Source of the DNA: Gemmatimonadota bacterium
GTDB lineage: Bacteria; Gemmatimonadota; Gemmatimonadetes; Gemmatimonadales; Gemmatimonadaceae
NCBI GenBank assembly: GCA_003223455.1
Contig: QHVE01000022.1
Location: 34,144-90,774, forward strand
Length of the DNA stretch: 56,631 nt
Reading direction: 5' to 3'
Positions within the stretch are counted from its first letter, which is position 1. Every line of letters starts with the position of its first letter. The position numbers and the translations under genes were made by a program. This document shows, piece by piece, positions 1 to 6,770 of the stretch. The notes beneath the pieces were generated by a model. The model did no database searches, was not told the DNA's origin, and worked only from the letters and a program-made list of their open reading frames with translations.

Positions 1-594
1 ATCGTCTACTACGGCAACGACTGGGTGTCGCCGGCGACGCGGGTGATCTTCACCCTCGACTACGCGGGACTCGGAGCGAGTGCCGCGCTGCTCGACGGGG
101 GCATGCCGGCGTGGAAGGCGGAGAAGCGAGCGCTCACGACCTCCGCGCCGAAGCCGTCGCGGGGGCACCTGGCGGCGCTGCAGATCAACCCGATCGTCGT
201 CGACGCGGCGTGGGTGAAGAGCCGGCTCGGCAGGCCGAGCTTCCACCTGATCGACGGGCGCGCCGCGGTGTTCTACGACGGCGTGGAGATGGGCGGATCT
301 CGCAAGGGACACATCGTCGGCGCGAAGAGCCTTCCGTACACCGAGATCGCCGACGACAACCTCAAGCTCCGCAGCCCCGCCGAGCTGAGCGCGCTGTTCG
401 CACGTGCCGGCGTGGCGCCTGGCGACACGGTGGTGGCGTACTGCCACATCGGTCAGCAGGCGACGGCGGTGCTGTTTGCCGCGCGGTCGATCGGCCATCC
501 CGTGCTCCTGTACGACGGCTCGTACCAGGACTGGTCGCGTCGTCCGGACTTCCCCGTCGAAGATCCGCGCGCGGGGAAGGCGAGCGCGCAATGA
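1..594 (+). CDS. Thiosulfate sulfurtransferase, tandem rhodanese (5'-truncated by window)
   Basis: The reading frame is open from base 1, so the gene starts left of the window. What remains is the end of a non-catalytic N-terminal rhodanese domain (YYGNDW near the start, then LLDGGMPAWK) followed by a complete catalytic domain carrying the loop YCHIGQQAT, whose Cys would form the persulfide. This arrangement is that of SseA-type thiosulfate or 3-mercaptopyruvate sulfurtransferases, which move sulfane sulfur to a thiol acceptor. No signal peptide can be judged because the N-terminus is missing. Its stop overlaps the start of the next gene (ATGA), so it is the visible head of the sulfur operon. 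Confidence 0.9.
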   Translation: MVYYGNDWVSPATRVIFTLDYAGLGASAALLDGGMPAWKAEKRALTTSAPKPSRGHLAALQINPIVVDAAWVKSRLGRPSFHLIDGRAAVFYDGVEMGGSRKGHIVGAKSLPYTEIADDNLKLRSPAELSALFARAGVAPGDTVVAYCHIGQQATAVLFAARSIGHPVLLYDGSYQDWSRRPDFPVEDPRAGKASAQ

Positions 595-1112
595 ACGCGC
601 GCGCTACGGCCCGGCCGTACGCCGATCCATACCTCGCGGGCGTCGGCCTCGGACTCGTGCTGCTCGCCTCGTTCGTGCTGGCGGGCCGCGGCCTCGGCGC
701 GAGCGGGGCCTTCGCCACGGCGGCAGCGACGTCGGTGAACGCCGTCGCGCCGAGCGCGGTCGCCGGCAATCCATACTTCGCGGATCATCTGGCCGCAGGC
801 GGCCCGCTGCGCGACTGGCTCGTCGTGGAGATCCTCGGCGTGATCGTCGGCGGTTTCCTCTCGGCGTCGCTCGCGGGCCGGCTCGCGTTGCGCGTCGAGC
901 GCGGTGCGCACACCTCCCTGAGGGAGCGGCTGGGTGCGGCGATGGCCGGCGGTGTGCTGATGGGCGGCGGCGCGGTGCTCGCGCGCGGATGCACCAGTGG
1001 CCAGGCGCTCACCGGAGGTGCGCTGCTCAGCGTCGGTGCGTGGCTGTTCATCGGCACCGCGTTCGCGGCGGCGTATCTCGTCGCGTTCGTGACGCGAAGG
1101 AGCTGGACATGA
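591..1112 (+). CDS. YeeE/YedE-family sulfur transporter, first half-size subunit
   Basis: A 173-residue, very hydrophobic membrane protein with the Sulf_transp (PF04143-type) signature: a Gly-rich helix, then ARGCTSGQALTGGA around residue 135. The Cys in that loop is the kind of residue that relays thiosulfate or persulfide sulfur in TsuA/YeeE transporters. Full-length YeeE carries both halves in one chain. Here the halves are separate polypeptides, as in the known paired YeeE/YedE genes. It starts at an ATG overlapping the upstream rhodanese stop and ends in the same way with the next gene, so the operon should be translationally coupled. The two halves presumably assemble into one channel. 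The substrate (thiosulfate or another sulfane sulfur species) is inferred. Confidence 0.85.
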   Translation: MNARATARPYADPYLAGVGLGLVLLASFVLAGRGLGASGAFATAAATSVNAVAPSAVAGNPYFADHLAAGGPLRDWLVVEILGVIVGGFLSASLAGRLALRVERGAHTSLRERLGAAMAGGVLMGGGAVLARGCTSGQALTGGALLSVGAWLFIGTAFAAAYLVAFVTRRSWT

Positions 1113-1714
1113 GCGCGCCGCTGCCCCTGTCGCTGGCGACGGGATCGGCCGGCGCGCTCGCTCTCGCGTTCGGCGTGGGAATCGGCTTCGGCTGGTGCCT
1201 CGAGCGCGCGGGGCTCGGCAGTGCGTCGAAGCTCATGGGCCAGTTCCACCTCACCGACCTGGCCGTGTTCAAGGTGATGTTCTCGGCGATCGTGACGGCG
1301 ATGCTCGGACTGTTCTGGCTGTCGCGCGTCGGCGTGGTCGATCTCTCGCGCGTGTACGTGCCGGAGACGTTCGTCCTGCCACAGCTCGTCGGCGGTCTGG
1401 TGTTCGGTGCGGGGATGGCACTCGCCGGGCTGTGCCCCGGCACGTCGTGCGTGGCGGCGGCGACGGGGCGGGGAGACGGGTTCGTGGTGGTCGGCGGGTT
1501 CTTTGCCGGTGTGCTGATGACGGCGCTCGCGCTTCCGGGGATGGCGCGCTTCTATCAGAGCGGTGCGCGCGGCACTCTGACGCTCGACTCGGTCCTCGGC
1601 CTGGAGACGGGATCGCTGATTCTCGTCGTCGTCGCCGCGGCGCTCGCCGGGTTCATCGTCGCGGAGCAGGTCGAGCAGTGGAAGTTGCGTCGCCTCGCGG
1701 AGCTGGAGCGATGA
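1109..1714 (+). CDS. YeeE/YedE-family sulfur transporter, second half-size subunit
   Basis: A 201-residue integral membrane protein forming the second half of the split YeeE/YedE pair. It has the repeat-related motif GLCPGTSCVAAATG near residue 110, with two Cys, preceded by GFGWCLERAGLGS near the N-terminus, which adds another conserved Cys. Alternating helices and the Gly-rich pore-like loops are typical of PF04143 proteins. The ATG start lies inside the previous gene's stop (ATGA), and its own stop overlaps the next start. With its partner at 591-1112 it should import a sulfur compound that the flanking rhodaneses and the aminotransferase then process. Family is clear and substrate is not. 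Confidence 0.85.
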   Translation: MSAPLPLSLATGSAGALALAFGVGIGFGWCLERAGLGSASKLMGQFHLTDLAVFKVMFSAIVTAMLGLFWLSRVGVVDLSRVYVPETFVLPQLVGGLVFGAGMALAGLCPGTSCVAAATGRGDGFVVVGGFFAGVLMTALALPGMARFYQSGARGTLTLDSVLGLETGSLILVVVAAALAGFIVAEQVEQWKLRRLAELER

Positions 1715-2325
1715 GCACGCGCGTGACCGCACTCCACCGCGCGCTCGCTGCCGCTGCGATTGCGTTGGCGGTTCCCGCCGCGATCGTTCGCGTGCCCGTG
1801 GCTCCGGCACGCGTTGCGCCAGTCGCGATCGGCGACGGCGTACGCGTCGACTCGTTCGTCACGCGCACCGTGGACGCCCGCCAGCTCGCGGCGTGGATCC
1901 GCGCAGGTGCTCGCGATGTCCGCGTGCTCGACTTGCGCGGGAATGCGGCATATCAGGCGCGACACGTGCCTTCGGCCGAGCCGGCCGACCGCGCGCGACT
2001 GGACACGCTGACCCGACGGACGGACGAGACGCTCGTCCTGTACTCGGGCGACGACGTGCGCGACGCGCAGGCGCTGGCCAACCTCGCCGCGCGCGGACAT
2101 CGGCACGCCTACGTTCTGGACGGCGGGATGGACGCCTGGGTGGACGAGGTGATGGAACCCGTGCTTCACGGTGACTCGGCGGACTACGTGGCGGCGCTGA
2201 GCCGATATTTCGGCGGCGCCCCGCGCACGAGCGCGCGCGAGCGAGAGGGGGAGCCGACACCGCCGCGTGTCAAGCCGATAGCGACTACCGGCGAGGCCGG
2301 CGAGACGCCGAGGCGCGGATGCTGA
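1711..2325 (+). CDS. Rhodanese-like exported protein lacking the loop Cys, with a C-terminal Cys
   Basis: A 204-residue protein with an N-terminal hydrophobic stretch (residues 9-30, signal peptide or anchor) and one rhodanese fold: the Asp-Arg pair in VLDLRGNAAYQARHVPSAE, and VLDGGMDAWVDEVM late in the domain. Where catalytic rhodaneses have a Cys the loop reads LYSGDDVRDAQ, with Ser instead. The only Cys in the whole protein is the final residue, after a flexible charged tail ending PRRGC. It is therefore unlikely to be a normal sulfurtransferase, though the tail Cys could carry sulfur (inference). It overlaps both neighbours and lies between the transporter halves and the desulfurase-like gene. 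Confidence 0.85.
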   Translation: MSTRVTALHRALAAAAIALAVPAAIVRVPVAPARVAPVAIGDGVRVDSFVTRTVDARQLAAWIRAGARDVRVLDLRGNAAYQARHVPSAEPADRARLDTLTRRTDETLVLYSGDDVRDAQALANLAARGHRHAYVLDGGMDAWVDEVMEPVLHGDSADYVAALSRYFGGAPRTSAREREGEPTPPRVKPIATTGEAGETPRRGC

Positions 2326-3725
2326 CCCCCACCGCCGCGCCGCGCGCCGAGCGCGCCGTCGACTTCGCCGATCTGCGTGCACGCGAGTTCCGTCGGCTCG
2401 ACGCGGGTGGCCACGCGTATCTGGACTACACGGGGAGCGCGCTCCATCCGGAGCGCCTCGTCACGGAGCATGCAGAGTCGCTGCGCCGCACCGTGCTGGG
2501 GAACCCGCACTCGGAAAGTCCCGCCTCACGCGCGAGCACGGCACTCGTGGAGGCGGCACGCGCGCGCGTGCTGCGCTTCTTCGATGCCGATCCCGGCGAG
2601 TACGTCGCGTGCTTCACCGCGAACACGACCGGGGCGATTCATCTCGTGGCATCCGGGTTCGCGTTCGGACCCGACGCGCCATTCATCCTCGCGACGGACG
2701 ATCACAACTCCGTGAACGGAGTACGCGCCTACGCGGAGCGCGCCGGAGCGCGCGTGCACTACCTTCCGCTCGACGGCGAGCTGCGGCTCGCCGACCCCGC
2801 GTCGCAGCTCGCCGTGTTGCGCCGCACGCACGTCGGAGCGGGGTTGGTCGCGTTCCCCGCGCAGTCGAATTTCTCCGGCGTGCAGCATCCGCTGGCCCTC
2901 GTCGAACGCGCCCGCGCGCTGGGCTACACGGTGCTGCTCGACGCCGCAGCGTTCGTCCCGACGTCGCCGCTCAGTCTTCGGCACGTGCCGGCGGATTTCG
3001 TGGCCTGCTCGTTCTACAAGATGTTCGGCTATCCGACCGGTGTCGGCGCGTTGGTCGCCCGTCGCGAAGCGCTCGCGCGGCTGCGCCGTCCGTGGTTCGC
3101 CGGTGGCACGGTGGAGTACGTGTCCGTGCAGCACGGGTCGCATCTGCTGCGCGAGGGAGCCGAGGGATTCGAGGACGGTACCGTGAGCTTCCTCGACGCC
3201 GACGCCGTGATTCGCGGGCTCGACTTCCTCGACGACGTCGGGATGCAGAGCATCCGCCGGCATGTCCGGTCGCTCGCCGCATCGCTCGTCGAGCGTCTGT
3301 GCGCACTGACGCACCCCGATGGCTCGCCGATGATCCGCGTGTACGGGCCGCGCGACCGATACGACTGCGGCGGCACGGTCACGTTCAACGTGCTCGATGC
3401 GCGCGGCGAGGCGGTGTCGTACGAGCTCGTCGAGGAGCACGCGCGCCTCGCCGGCGTCTCGGTGCGCGGAGGCTGCTTCTGCAATCCGGGCGCATCGGAG
3501 GCGGCGTTCGGCTTCGTCGCCGACCGTGCGCTCGCCTGCATCGCGGAGACGCGACAGGAAGGATGGACGCTCGAGCGCTTCGCGCGCAGGATGCGAGCGT
3601 GCGGAGGCGCGCACGCGATCGGCGCCATTCGGGCGTCAGCCGGAATCGCGTCGAGCGAACAGGATCTCGAAAGGTTGCTCGAGGCGCTCGTCGCGTCGAA
3701 CTGGCATCAGGAACGGAGGGCTTGA
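2319..3725 (+). CDS. Class V aminotransferase, cysteine-desulfurase/MoCo-sulfurase-like
   Basis: A 468-residue PLP-dependent fold type I enzyme. The PLP lysine is K234 in CSFYKMFGYPTGVGA, and a Cys-rich catalytic loop GGCFCNPGASE (C386, C388) is positioned like the substrate-activating Cys loop of cysteine desulfurases and the N-terminal domain of molybdenum-cofactor sulfurases. The C-terminus contains the familiar ASAGIASSEQDLERL helix. The reaction expected is removal of sulfur from cysteine as a protein persulfide. It is the last gene of the sulfur operon and starts inside the rhodanese-like gene (7-bp overlap). Length suits a stand-alone MOCOS-like N-domain. The sulfur acceptor is not known, and the rhodanese-like neighbour is a candidate. 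Confidence 0.85.
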   Translation: MLTPTAAPRAERAVDFADLRAREFRRLDAGGHAYLDYTGSALHPERLVTEHAESLRRTVLGNPHSESPASRASTALVEAARARVLRFFDADPGEYVACFTANTTGAIHLVASGFAFGPDAPFILATDDHNSVNGVRAYAERAGARVHYLPLDGELRLADPASQLAVLRRTHVGAGLVAFPAQSNFSGVQHPLALVERARALGYTVLLDAAAFVPTSPLSLRHVPADFVACSFYKMFGYPTGVGALVARREALARLRRPWFAGGTVEYVSVQHGSHLLREGAEGFEDGTVSFLDADAVIRGLDFLDDVGMQSIRRHVRSLAASLVERLCALTHPDGSPMIRVYGPRDRYDCGGTVTFNVLDARGEAVSYELVEEHARLAGVSVRGGCFCNPGASEAAFGFVADRALACIAETRQEGWTLERFARRMRACGGAHAIGAIRASAGIASSEQDLERLLEALVASNWHQERRA

Positions 3726-3730
3726 CAGGA

Positions 3731-4864
3731 TCAGGGGGGATCGGCCGGATGCACGGGCACCTGCTTTTTGGGAGGGTTCGCCGCGAGGAACGCCATGCCT
3801 CCGTACTTCGGCCAGCCCGTGGTGATCCACTCGTGATACTTCATCGCCTGGTCGGCGTCCTTCGCCCACTCCCACTGTCCCTTCGGTGGGGGCGATGGAT
3901 ACGCTCGCATGAGCGCCGAGACCTCGACGACGTCGTGTAGTCCGTCGCCAATGCTGCGCGTCACGAACGGGGTGCGGTACGCCTCGCCGCGCGTCCAGAC
4001 GCGGTAGCCGTAGTACGCCGAGGCGACCGCCTCGTGCAGCCGCGCCGTGAGCAGCGTACGCTCGAACAGCGCGTGCAGGTCGGCGTAGTCGCCGGGACGT
4101 ATCACTTTGCGCCCGTCCTCGATCGAGCGGAGCGACTCCCTCGCCCTGGCGACCCCCCAGCGCTTCTCGGTGAGCACCATGCGGAGCGTACCCTCGTCCA
4201 TCCGCTCCCCCGAATGGATCCACCCGCTGTCGCGCACCCACGGTACCTCGCCCCACTGCGCGCCGTTCGGCTCCTTCGCCGAGGGCGGCGCGATCCGGTC
4301 GACGACGTCGCGCCAGTAGTGCAGATCACGGTTCACTCCGTGCCGAACGTGCGCCACCGGTGGCTCGATCCACTTGCCGCTCACGTGCCGTGCGTAGCTC
4401 GACGAGTAGCCGTCGTAGTCGAGCCGCGAGTGGTTCGCGACGTTCGTCCCCAACGTGTACAGGCTGCTCGTGACGATGTCGAAGGCATTGCGGAAGGCGC
4501 GCGCCACGAACGGCCGCGCCGCCGCGCCGTAGTGCGCCGTGACGAACTCCGACGTGACCGCATCCGCCGTGACTCGCGGATCGTCGACGAAGCGCGCCAG
4601 CGCGTACAAATCGACCTCCGCGGGATGGCCGACCAGGCGAGTGCGTCCGTAGCGGTCGGTGCGCGCCGTGTAGCCGATCACGTGCGGCCGCCGCAGGAGG
4701 TCGCGCGCTCGCCCGAGGATGTACTCCGGCCATGTGCTGGCGATCTGACCCTGGCCGTTGAACTCCCCCGCAGCATCGAATTCGATCACCGTCGGCCGGG
4801 CGATCGTCCCCGCGTAGCGATCGTTGGGATGCGTGAGGAAGAAGTCGTGCGGCGTCTCCTTCAT
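3731..4864 (-). CDS. Secreted glycoside-hydrolase-like protein, C-terminal part (frameshifted)
   Basis: A 377-residue frame, opening with MKETPHDFF, that continues the protein encoded at 4864-5535. Recognisable stretches are IEFDAAGEFNGQGQIAS, a segment HVIGYTARTDRYG and many aromatic residues typical of carbohydrate-active enzymes. The overall pattern resembles the catalytic region of GH67-like alpha-glucuronidases, but I am not certain of the family. Its first ATG overlaps the upstream stop as TGATG, so the piece could be made by coupled reinitiation. More simply, the two were one gene and a single base was lost. The stop lies 5 bp from the stop of the convergent sulfur operon. Confidence 0.7.
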   Translation of the reverse strand: MKETPHDFFLTHPNDRYAGTIARPTVIEFDAAGEFNGQGQIASTWPEYILGRARDLLRRPHVIGYTARTDRYGRTRLVGHPAEVDLYALARFVDDPRVTADAVTSEFVTAHYGAAARPFVARAFRNAFDIVTSSLYTLGTNVANHSRLDYDGYSSSYARHVSGKWIEPPVAHVRHGVNRDLHYWRDVVDRIAPPSAKEPNGAQWGEVPWVRDSGWIHSGERMDEGTLRMVLTEKRWGVARARESLRSIEDGRKVIRPGDYADLHALFERTLLTARLHEAVASAYYGYRVWTRGEAYRTPFVTRSIGDGLHDVVEVSALMRAYPSPPPKGQWEWAKDADQAMKYHEWITTGWPKYGGMAFLAANPPKKQVPVHPADPP

Positions 4865-5535
4865 CAGCACTCTACCGCACCGATGATCGCGCGATACTCC
4901 TCGTGGGTGTACGAGAAGGTGCGCGCGTAGAGATTGAGGTGCCGCTCCCCGATCACCACGTCGGCCACGGCGTTCACCACCGCGGCGAGCTTCTCCTGCG
5001 GGGTGTTCATGACGCGAGAGTGCTGGCGCTCGGCGCGCGCGCCCGTCTCGATGAACGTGAGCACGATGCCGTCCGCGGCGGGAACCCGGTCGAGCATCTC
5101 GCGGTAGTCCTGCTTGAGCCACGCCCAGAATGCAGGATCGTCGAGATCGATCGTCCCGTCCGGTCCCGTGCGGAAGCGCTCGGGGTAGTACGCGAGCTCG
5201 TAGAGCGCGTGGTCCCACACGACGACCTCGCGAACTCCAGTGGCATGCGCCGAGTCGACGAGGCGGTTCACCAGCGCACGCTTCTTCTCGTCGCGGACCT
5301 CGTTGAGGTCCATGATCACCTCGTGCGAGAGCTCGAGGTGATTGATCCTGTACTTCGGCGCGGCGGCGATGACGGCGAGGTCATCGACCTCGCTGTTCGA
5401 CAGGATCGTCCATCCGCGCACCGGCTCGTCGCTGCGGAGCGCGCCATGCGGCGTCGCCCTCGACGTCTGCTGCGCCGCGCCCGGTGACGTGAGCGCGACG
5501 AGCAGCAGACCGAGGCGCGCGAGCCGAGCGATCAA
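4864..5535 (-). CDS. Secreted glycoside-hydrolase-like protein, N-terminal part (frameshifted)
   Basis: A 223-residue frame with a clear signal peptide (IARLARLGLLLVALTSPGAA), then a TIM-barrel-like segment with DDLAVIAAAPKYRINHLELS, REVVVWDHALYELAYY and GIVLTFIETG. The most likely start is a TTG at 5535 overlapping the msrA stop (TTGA), since no ATG or GTG sits between that point and the signal peptide. It ends early at GAVEC and the adjacent frame continues the homologous reading with LMKETPH, so one nucleotide seems missing close to 4866-4872. Together the two pieces give a secreted enzyme of about 600 residues. It forms an operon with msrA. Confidence 0.65.
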   Translation of the reverse strand: MIARLARLGLLLVALTSPGAAQQTSRATPHGALRSDEPVRGWTILSNSEVDDLAVIAAAPKYRINHLELSHEVIMDLNEVRDEKKRALVNRLVDSAHATGVREVVVWDHALYELAYYPERFRTGPDGTIDLDDPAFWAWLKQDYREMLDRVPAADGIVLTFIETGARAERQHSRVMNTPQEKLAAVVNAVADVVIGERHLNLYARTFSYTHEEYRAIIGAVEC

Positions 5536-6218
5536 TCGCGCCAGAGCTGCGCGAACTGTGTCTTGAGCGCTTCCACCTTCGGCCGATCGTTGATCACGAT
5601 GTAGGGCTGGTTCGGGTGGAGGTTGTAGTAGTTCTGGTGGTAGCCCTCCGCGTCGTAAAACGCCTTGAGCGGCGCGACCTGCGTCACGATCGGATCCTTG
5701 AACGCCTTGGACTTCGTGAGCTGCGCGATGTAGGCGTCCACCACCTTGCGTTGCGCCTCGGTGGTGTAGAAGACCGCCGATCGGTACTGCGTGCCGACGT
5801 CCGGTCCCTGGCGGTTGAGCTCCGTCGGATCGTGCGCGACGGAGAAGAACACCTTGAGGAGCTGGCCGAGCGAGACCTGCGAGCTGTCGAACACGATCTT
5901 CACGGACTCGGCATGCCCCGTCGTCCCCGAGCTCACGTGCTCGTAGCTCGGCGACGAGACAGTCCCGCCGGCGTACCCGGACGTCGCGCTCACGACCCCC
6001 TTCACGTGCTGGAAAACCGCCTGCACGCCCCAGAAGCATCCGCCGGCGAGCACGATAATCTGTTCGCCCTTCGCGGAAGCGATCGGCTGATCGATCGCGG
6101 GGTCGGGAAGTGTCGTGATGGTCGGCGTCGAGCCCGCGATCGTGCGCGTGACGAAGAGAAGGGCGGCGACGAGGCCAGCGGTGAGCGCGGCGATACCGCG
6201 TTTGGGCGAGCGGGACAT
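5532..6218 (-). CDS. msrA: Exported peptide-methionine (S)-S-oxide reductase MsrA
   Basis: A 228-residue protein with an N-terminal hydrophobic export segment (residues about 8-30) followed by a complete MsrA domain. The catalytic motif GGCFWG has Cys61. GYAGG, YEHVSSGTTGHAE, and the HDPTELNRQGPDVGTQYRS block that binds methionine sulfoxide are all present, as is GYHQNYYNLHP. It reduces S-methionine sulfoxide in proteins, here presumably outside the cytoplasm. A second or third resolving Cys is not evident after the catalytic one. I chose the ATG at 6218 because the signal peptide begins there, although an upstream in-frame start exists. The split hydrolase gene follows with a 4-bp overlap. 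Confidence 0.93.
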   Translation of the reverse strand: MSRSPKRGIAALTAGLVAALLFVTRTIAGSTPTITTLPDPAIDQPIASAKGEQIIVLAGGCFWGVQAVFQHVKGVVSATSGYAGGTVSSPSYEHVSSGTTGHAESVKIVFDSSQVSLGQLLKVFFSVAHDPTELNRQGPDVGTQYRSAVFYTTEAQRKVVDAYIAQLTKSKAFKDPIVTQVAPLKAFYDAEGYHQNYYNLHPNQPYIVINDRPKVEALKTQFAQLWRD

Positions 6219-6295
6219 TGGAAGCACTCTCGGGAAGGGACGTTCAGCGACTCCCCATTGATACGCCGATCGGACGAAAATGGATGTACGACGCA

Positions 6296-6325
6296 CGAAG
6301 GGCGAGCCGGCCGGCTCGCCCTTCG
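6296..6325. terminator. 30-bp perfect palindrome, terminator-like
   Basis: Two 15-base arms, CGAAGGGCGAGCCGG and its exact reverse complement, meet without a spacer. It lies 18 bp past the stop of the small minus-strand gene at 6344-6565 and upstream of msrA. No T-run follows on the minus strand, so intrinsic termination is plausible rather than certain. Confidence 0.55.
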
Positions 6326-6343
6326 GTATTCGGGGGCAGGCGG

Positions 6344-6565
6344 TCAGGCGCGTGCCGTCGGGGACATGCGTGGCGCGACGTGCGGCAGAAGCTGGAGTGC
6401 CGCCTCCCGGTCCTGCTCGCTGATCGGATCGCGATCCGAGGCGAGGCGGAACGACGCGAGAACCTCATCGCACAGGTCGCGCAGCCGAGTCCGGCGGCGA
6501 CGGTCGCGGGAGACGGGGCGGGGACCGGAGAGCCTGGTCGAGGAGAAAACACGATCAGTTCGCAT
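6344..6565 (-). CDS. Small hypothetical protein
   Basis: A 73-residue frame starting at the ATG at 6565. The first half is Arg-rich (DRRRRTRLRD) and the second half forms a regular amphipathic pattern, LCDEVLASFRLASDRD then EQDREAALQLLPHVAP, which reads like a genuine small helical protein rather than a shadow. A strong palindrome lies just beyond its stop. There is no obvious ribosome binding site. I do not recognise the family and cannot give a function. The main alternative is a non-coding gap between msrA and the L,D-transpeptidase. Confidence 0.45.
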   Translation of the reverse strand: MRTDRVFSSTRLSGPRPVSRDRRRRTRLRDLCDEVLASFRLASDRDPISEQDREAALQLLPHVAPRMSPTARA

Positions 6566-6770
6566 GGGGAATCGCTTGGTTGAGTCGTTGACACCGGGGC
6601 CCGGCACACGGTCGAGCTGGTCAGGCGAACCACAAAGCAGAGTTCGGGCCAGTATGTCGCCGAGTGAAGAGTCCGATTCCGCGAGCGCTGGCGCGCTCGA
6701 CGTGGCCCGACTCTCGCCTCTGTCGGTCGAGCGGCAATGCGCCCGCCGACACCATTTCCTCGCGACGAGC
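6566..6770. other. Divergent intergenic region, no gene seen
   Basis: About 205 bases between the start of the small minus-strand gene and the start of the plus-strand L,D-transpeptidase. It must hold promoters for both directions. I see no clear -10/-35 pair, operator or repeat. Confidence 0.5.

Follow-up and report, generated by a model that had tools for sequence, protein, structure and literature searches.

The import of outside sulfane sulfur and its presentation to YeeE/YedE-type transporters are called poorly understood in the available text of PMC11582611. An operon that bears on this question was analyzed in a 56,631-nucleotide stretch of a Gemmatimonadota bacterium (GenBank assembly GCA_003223455.1, contig QHVE01000022.1, positions 34,144 to 90,774 of the forward strand), which is referred to as a whole as the window. 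At positions 1–3725 of its plus strand lie five genes: the 3′ part of a rhodanese gene (RHO1), two genes for proteins that match halves of a YeeE/YedE transporter (TRA and TRB), a gene for a rhodanese-like protein with a cysteine at the end of its tail (RHO2), and a gene for a cysteine desulfurase-like enzyme (DES).

For TsuA, a relay has been proposed that runs from Cys293 through Cys91 to Cys22 and on to YeeD at the cytosolic exit (PMC11073785). TsuA–TsuB (YeeE–YeeD) shares with the operon the transporter family and a dedicated single-cysteine partner that is sometimes fused to the transporter, but that partner is TusA-like and placed at the cytosolic exit (PMC11073785), whereas RHO2 is rhodanese-like and predicted at the periplasmic entry. 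PmpB and PmpA correspond to the N- and C-terminal halves of TsuA, with Cys91 and Cys293 (PMC11582611), and in the available part of PMC10812762 the PmpAB-like YedE1E2 is an importer of zero-valent sulfur and not an exporter. Common to PmpA/PmpB and the operon are two polypeptides, one matching the C-terminal and one the N-terminal half of TsuA, with one key cysteine each (PMC11582611, PMC10812762). PmpA and PmpB are ∼130 residues each, however, with no equivalent of the central helix, whereas TRA and TRB have 173 and 201 residues and TRB an extra hydrophobic segment; moreover, a tail-cysteine rhodanese-like protein is here encoded beside the channel or fused to it, a protein missing from the weaker TRA-like loci L166 and L167. 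For SoxT1A/SoxT1B with SoxYZ, YeeE-like import of sulfur held on the periplasmic C-terminal-cysteine carrier SoxY has likewise been proposed (PMC11582611); the path of the sulfur to the transporter is left open in the available text of that paper, whereas the putative carrier is here genetically tied to the channel. The YTD cluster (yeeE/yedE-tusA-dsrE) of sulfur-disproportionating and cable bacteria likewise places YeeE/YedE with sulfur-transfer proteins (PMC13047784, PMC13293266), but its partners differ from those of the operon, and neither TusA nor DsrE is among the Pfam matches of the operon proteins. No description of a tail-cysteine rhodanese beside a split YeeE/YedE was found among the titles and abstracts listed by searches of the open-licence PMC literature.

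TRA, TRB, and RHO2 form a constant core

Recurrence of the operon was examined with profiles of two of its proteins. When 395 genomes of the window's phylum were searched with a profile built from ten RHO2 proteins, 26 genomes scored at least 103 bits and all other listed matches at most 67. TRB lay directly upstream of RHO2 in all 26, preceded by TRA (25 complete; at L079 the contig ends within TRA). In a second collection, scanned with an RHO2 sub-alignment, 15 loci were found, four of them repeating known ones; TRB preceded RHO2 in 15 of 15 and TRA was present in 14, the remaining locus (L093, a repeat of L079) being cut off. Among them are records labelled Acidobacteriota, Acidobacteria, or Thermoanaerobaculia (L094, L097, and L099), Bacteroidetes (L100 and L105), Asticcacaulis (L102), Gammaproteobacteria (L104), and Ignavibacteria (L106). 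Besides the window's phylum, the module was thus seen overall in records labelled Gemmatimonadetes, Bacteroidetes, Acidobacteriota, Ignavibacteria, Asticcacaulis, and Gammaproteobacteria.

The converse search scanned these 395 genomes with a TRA profile and returned 36 loci of at least 157 bits (next score 98). Twenty-six fall in genomes with RHO2 from the first survey, although G360 has its TRA on a different contig from its RHO2. Nine of the remaining ten encode, in frame with TRB, an RHO2-like domain that has diverged further and has a tail cysteine. The Bacteroidetes locus L100 belongs to genome G397, and the TRA profile was also run over 198 genomes of that genome's phylum; there, 37 loci scored at least 161 bits, TRB and an RHO2-like protein followed downstream in every one, and the RHO2-like tails ended in cysteine in 35 and had it as the penultimate residue in two. 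The weaker TRA-like loci L117, L166, and L167, taken as negative controls, had no tail-cysteine protein downstream of TRB in the stretch examined, and a scan of genome contigs with a single protein as query gave no match.

The sequence-only reading of the window had treated the five genes as a single set; it had named recurrence of the same gene order in many genomes as its check, and a tail-cysteine rhodanese lying mostly far from YeeE/YedE as its refutation. The refuting outcome did not occur, RHO2 standing beside the channel in 26 of 26, 15 of 15, and 37 of 37 cases, but for the full set of five the reading holds only in part: TRA–TRB–RHO2 is the constant core, RHO1 is one of three alternatives, and DES is optional. 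The module is wider and more orderly than that reading had it, and the tail-cysteine protein is its new element.

In the window itself the five overlapping genes that had been claimed are indeed present, successive overlaps being 4, 4, 4, and 7 nucleotides (ATGA, ATGA, ATGA, and ATGCTGA). All five proteins exceed the Pfam gathering score for the families originally read: Rhodanese for RHO1 and RHO2, Sulf_transp for TRA and TRB, and Aminotran_5 for DES.

RHO2 lacks the loop cysteine and ends in a cysteine

RHO2 (positions 1711–2325, plus strand; PF00581, 42.7 bits) is a membrane-anchored rhodanese-like protein. Its AlphaFold model has a mean predicted local distance difference test score (pLDDT) of 82 and consists of an N-terminal helix (residues 3–25), a rhodanese domain (∼54–149), and a low-confidence tail, in which residues 181–204 have pLDDT values of about 50–66. 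The best PDB match of the model is 3ilm_A (Alr3790), with Z 13.1 and a root mean square deviation of 1.8 over 96 residues. Rhodanese is the sole Pfam match at E values up to 0.1, with no match to a SoxY domain. The claim that this protein has no loop cysteine and has one in its tail proved accurate: the loop reads LVLYSGDD, with serine at the position of the catalytic cysteine, and the only cysteine is residue 204 of 204, at the end of a basic tail (codon TGC, positions 2320–2322, plus strand, within the ATGCTGA overlap with the DES start). RHO2 thus shares its fold with single-domain rhodaneses such as GlpE, YgaP, and Alr3790 but has no loop cysteine and bears its thiol at the C-terminal tip.

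The family was assembled as 82 distinct loci (35 + 11 + 36, repeats dropped), 81 of them with a visible C terminus. Cysteine is the final residue in 74 of the 81, falls among the last four residues in six more, and is missing from one. As controls from the same loci, cysteine within the last four residues was seen in 0 of 29 RHO1, 0 of 81 TRA, 0 of 53 TRB, and 0 of 21 DES proteins, and in 1 of 25 generic rhodaneses of the window's phylum; the RHO2 family members are kin, and the counts carry no probability claim. In the alignment the tail cysteine column (80 rows) ranks second in conservation, and every other column has cysteine in at most three rows. At the loop position the 82 proteins have serine (42), alanine (17), glycine (12), aspartate (8), cysteine (2), or valine (1).

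Residues preceding the tail cysteine differ (RRGC, KEGC, RMGC, NTC, and GGC). A ubiquitin-like, GG-type C terminus with an added cysteine was considered and rejected, GG preceding the cysteine in only some tails. Also rejected was the possibility that the tail cysteine is forced by the ATGCTGA overlap with DES, as six combinations of codon and stop occur where no DES was detected. Among 55 such Cys-final loci, a number that includes L079, which has DES and was miscounted because its TRA is cut off, there are 23 TGC-TGA, 11 TGT-TAA, 10 TGT-TGA, 6 TGT-TAG, 4 TGC-TAA, and 1 TGC-TAG. This variety argues that the cysteine is kept on its own account and not by the overlap. One octaheme-type locus of the window's phylum, L113 (G166:C22), has the tail GGCG, which resembles the SoxY tail motif GGCGG.

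TRA and TRB resemble the two halves of TsuA

TRA (positions 591–1112, plus strand) corresponds to the C-terminal half of YeeE/YedE and is PmpA-like, matching positions 176–309 of the Sulf_transp profile PF04143 with 70.8 bits; TRB (positions 1109–1714, plus strand) corresponds to the N-terminal half and is PmpB-like, matching profile positions 5–156 with 62.4 bits (gathering score 27). TRA Cys134, in ARGCTSGQALTGG, aligns by phmmer with the GGCNIG cysteine of TsuA chains 8j4c and 6leo, which is Cys293, and is invariant in 17 of 17 sequences. TRB has five hydrophobic segments, including the extra C-terminal one, and its Cys109, in GLCPGTSC, is invariant in 14 of 14. No PDB chain was found for TRB, and for this reason the putative equivalence of Cys109 with TsuA Cys91 is drawn from the Pfam half-match. 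The best reading is that TRA and TRB jointly form one YeeE/YedE-type channel.

For the placement of RHO2 relative to this channel, the 82 loci were inspected for hydrophobic segments and flanking charge. A hydrophobic segment stands ahead of the RHO2 domain in 80, and positive charge is greater before than after the segment, an N-in pattern, in 69 (equal in 5 and less in 8). RHO2 continues the TRB reading frame as a fusion in 29 of the 82 loci. A model of the TRB–RHO2 fusion had a mean pLDDT of 80 and a predicted template modeling score of 0.52; its PDB matches came only through the rhodanese part, and the absence of TsuA from the matches listed is uninformative either way. From these sequence features the RHO2 domain and tail are predicted to be periplasmic, and the positive-inside charges together with the fusions suggest that RHO2 acts before the channel on its outer face. 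RHO2 had originally been cast as an exported protein that receives imported sulfur; its outer-face placement agrees with the prediction, whereas its position in the pathway is most likely upstream of the channel, which it would feed.

Three kinds of enzyme adjoin the core

The 82 loci were classed by the gene directly before TRA, the enzymes being identified by Pfam and PDB matches. In 32, this is a Psr/Phs-type set comprising NrfD and a Fer4 protein, with a PsrA/PhsA-like molybdoenzyme where the flank reaches; in 25, RHO1, accompanied by DES in 19; and in 16, a cytochrome b561 with an octaheme cytochrome. Four have other upstream contexts, with none of the three at L036 and with RHO1 or NrfD farther away at L105, L106, and L144, and five were left unclassed owing to a contig edge or a cut-off TRA.

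RHO1 in the window (positions 1–594, plus strand; PF00581, 63.4 bits) is the 3′ part of a two-domain rhodanese gene whose start lies in the contig, which extends 34 kb to the left of the window; a short run of N precedes window base 1. The whole gene (L003:9689–10594) encodes two rhodanese stretches and an N-terminal hydrophobic, signal-like stretch, and its loop YCHIGQQAT retains the active-site cysteine. A histidine kinase gene and the gene of a response regulator that contains a Trans_reg_C domain lie directly upstream, in the same direction. A tandem pair of RHO1 genes precedes TRA in one locus (L039 of G044, 4881–6716).

The L100 molybdoenzyme matched PDB entry 2vpw (PsrA-type, named thiosulfate reductase there) with 716.6 bits; we take this entry to be the polysulfide reductase of Thermus. 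Against the PhsA equivalog model, Psr/Phs-like molybdoenzymes scored 510.9 and 503.1, below the cut-off of 694, and a twin-arginine motif was present in 13 of 13 Psr-like N termini examined. The multihaem cytochrome of L175 matched 1sp3 with 447 bits, presumably the octaheme tetrathionate reductase of Shewanella. The three upstream enzyme types point tentatively to thiosulfate, polysulfide, or tetrathionate as outside substrates. In L035 (12458–14521), a multihaem cytochrome stands next to Psr-like genes and scores 232 bits against ExtM (cut-off 800), a member of a selenite/tellurite reduction operon.

DES is an optional accessory

DES (positions 2319–3725, plus strand; PF00266, 147.4 bits) is a class V pyridoxal phosphate-dependent, desulfurase-like protein. 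It scored 140.7 bits against the SufS model TIGR01979, far under the cut-off of 475.1, and 71.6 against the CsdA model TIGR03392 (cut-off 493.6). Lys234, Cys386, and Cys388 (RGGCFCNPG) are invariant in the seven aligned sequences; from general knowledge of the family we take Lys234 to be the pyridoxal phosphate lysine and the GCFCNPG cysteine to be catalytic, and the motif presumably resembles that of molybdenum cofactor sulfurase.

DES is present in 22 of the 82 loci, namely the 19 of the RHO1 class and L079, L094, and L098, and was not detected in Psr-type or octaheme-type loci, as far as their flanks reach. Within the window's phylum, 18 of 54 DES loci lie within the module, and the module DES proteins are not united in a tree. 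DES as a core part was rejected because it is mostly located elsewhere, is not united in the tree, and went undetected in two of the locus classes within their available flanks; it is an optional accessory of the RHO1-type operon. Of the 36 DES loci that lie outside the module, 11 were inspected; apart from frames opposite DES, no further family of neighbours recurred in at least three of them. At L118, RHO1 stands beside DES. Within the RHO1-type operon, DES may serve as a cytosolic acceptor or handler of sulfur.

A candidate import line for sulfane sulfur

The reading we prefer, at a probability of roughly 55%, is that the operon is a periplasm-to-cytoplasm import line for sulfane sulfur, in which RHO2 is a swinging-arm carrier that loads a split PmpAB/TsuA-like channel. 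RHO2 would be held in the membrane by its single N-terminal helix or by fusion to TRB, with the rhodanese-like domain in the periplasm; the domain, its catalytic cysteine lost, would act as a dock or scaffold, and the tail cysteine as the active thiol. A periplasmic enzyme (RHO1 here, a Psr/Phs-like complex or octaheme cytochrome elsewhere) would make or release sulfane sulfur, which the tail cysteine would accept as a persulfide or S-sulfonate and swing to the channel mouth. From there the sulfur would pass to TRA Cys134, the first channel cysteine, then to TRB Cys109, and on to the cytosol. The genes, their synteny and fusions, the conserved tail cysteine, the lack of a loop cysteine, the predicted fold, and the changing upstream enzymes are observed; we infer the topology, the chemistry, the direction, the contact between partners, and the role of DES. 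A precedent for such a tail is SoxY, whose C-terminal cysteine, flanked by glycine, can carry sulfur for partner enzymes (PMC6067878). A SoxY search of the 32 module genomes gave no match, but its positive control matched nowhere either.

Several observations weigh against the import line. TusA (PF01206) was not found in the window's own genome (G000) and was found in only 6 of the 32 module genomes of the phylum and 4 of 10 others. The charge pattern around the RHO2 segment is opposite or neutral in 13 of the 82 loci, five of those with reversed charge being TRB–RHO2 fusions in which the script took a TRB helix. The RHO2 proteins of L136 and L139 have cysteine both at the loop (LLYCEDN and LLYCENN) and in the tail, possibly as intermediates of loop-cysteine loss. 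The Ignavibacteria RHO2 (L106) stops before the tail cysteine, one of the 36 TRA loci (G103:C4) is a degraded TRA/TRB remnant without RHO2, and the contact of the RHO2 tail with TRA is a guess.

Two of these loci can be described further. Just downstream of 5539 in L106 there is an in-frame TAG, and the codons beyond it read VKKEEEELRYRC-stop; sequencing error, decay, and readthrough are indistinguishable at this site. In G103:C4 (L111, 4110–5033), a single shortened frame spans TRA and TRB; this copy is decaying, and another contig carries an intact one.

Sensing in place of import is an unlikely account. TRA–TRB–RHO2 would then sample external sulfane sulfur and report to a regulator, as SoxT1B does to SoxR, a precedent given in PMC11582611, and the upstream two-component pair would be the target or partner. 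In 10 of the 25 RHO1-type loci a histidine kinase and response regulator are indeed encoded immediately before RHO1, and MerR-type genes occur near some Bacteroidota loci; yet the kinase pair was not found in the available flanks of Psr-type or octaheme-type loci, and the large energy-metabolism enzymes adjoining the core suggest flux over signalling. We regard export as quite improbable: DES would draw sulfur from cysteine in the cytosol, TRA–TRB would export it, and RHO2 and RHO1 would use it in the periplasm, for example for sulfuration of exported proteins or cyanide detoxification. Two rhodanese-type proteins predicted to face the periplasm, and a DES whose putative cofactor lysine and cysteine motif are kept in all seven aligned sequences, would suit this direction, but DES was found in only 22 of the 82 loci, its tree does not bring the module members together, and the nearest tested split transporter imports and, in the available part of the source, does not export (PMC10812762).

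It is doubtful that the tail cysteine, in place of carrying sulfur, has a redox or structural part, as a disulfide or metal ligand locking RHO2 to TRA. The terminal thiol could pair with TRA Cys134 in a mixed disulfide, but the varied residues before the cysteine and the low pLDDT of the tail are more in keeping with a moving arm than with a rigid lock, and the neighbours are sulfur enzymes. Under the import reading, RHO2 would be an arm devoted to delivering sulfur to the transporter from the outer side of the cell membrane. The odds look about even that RHO2, a rhodanese in which one cysteine at the tip of a mobile C-terminal arm has taken the place of the catalytic one, represents a new class of periplasmic sulfur carrier. 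As a common adaptor it would, across several phyla, connect interchangeable sulfur enzymes (rhodanese, Psr/Phs-type complex, or octaheme cytochrome) to a single split YeeE/YedE channel. RHO2 is a candidate presenter next to the channel, fused to it in about a third of loci; because this candidate adjoins the channel and has one mutable cysteine, the question of presentation becomes directly testable. TRA–TRB with a tail-cysteine rhodanese also provides a sequence marker for a sulfur-handling trait.

Genes flanking the operon

Downstream of DES, the minus strand of the window carries at 3731–5538 two reading frames that overlap each other and gave no Pfam match; they converge on the operon and look like one protein broken by a frameshift near 4865. 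At 5532–6296, also on the minus strand, lies a gene for a peptide methionine sulfoxide reductase (PF01625, 209 bits) whose N terminus has a hydrophobic, signal-like stretch.

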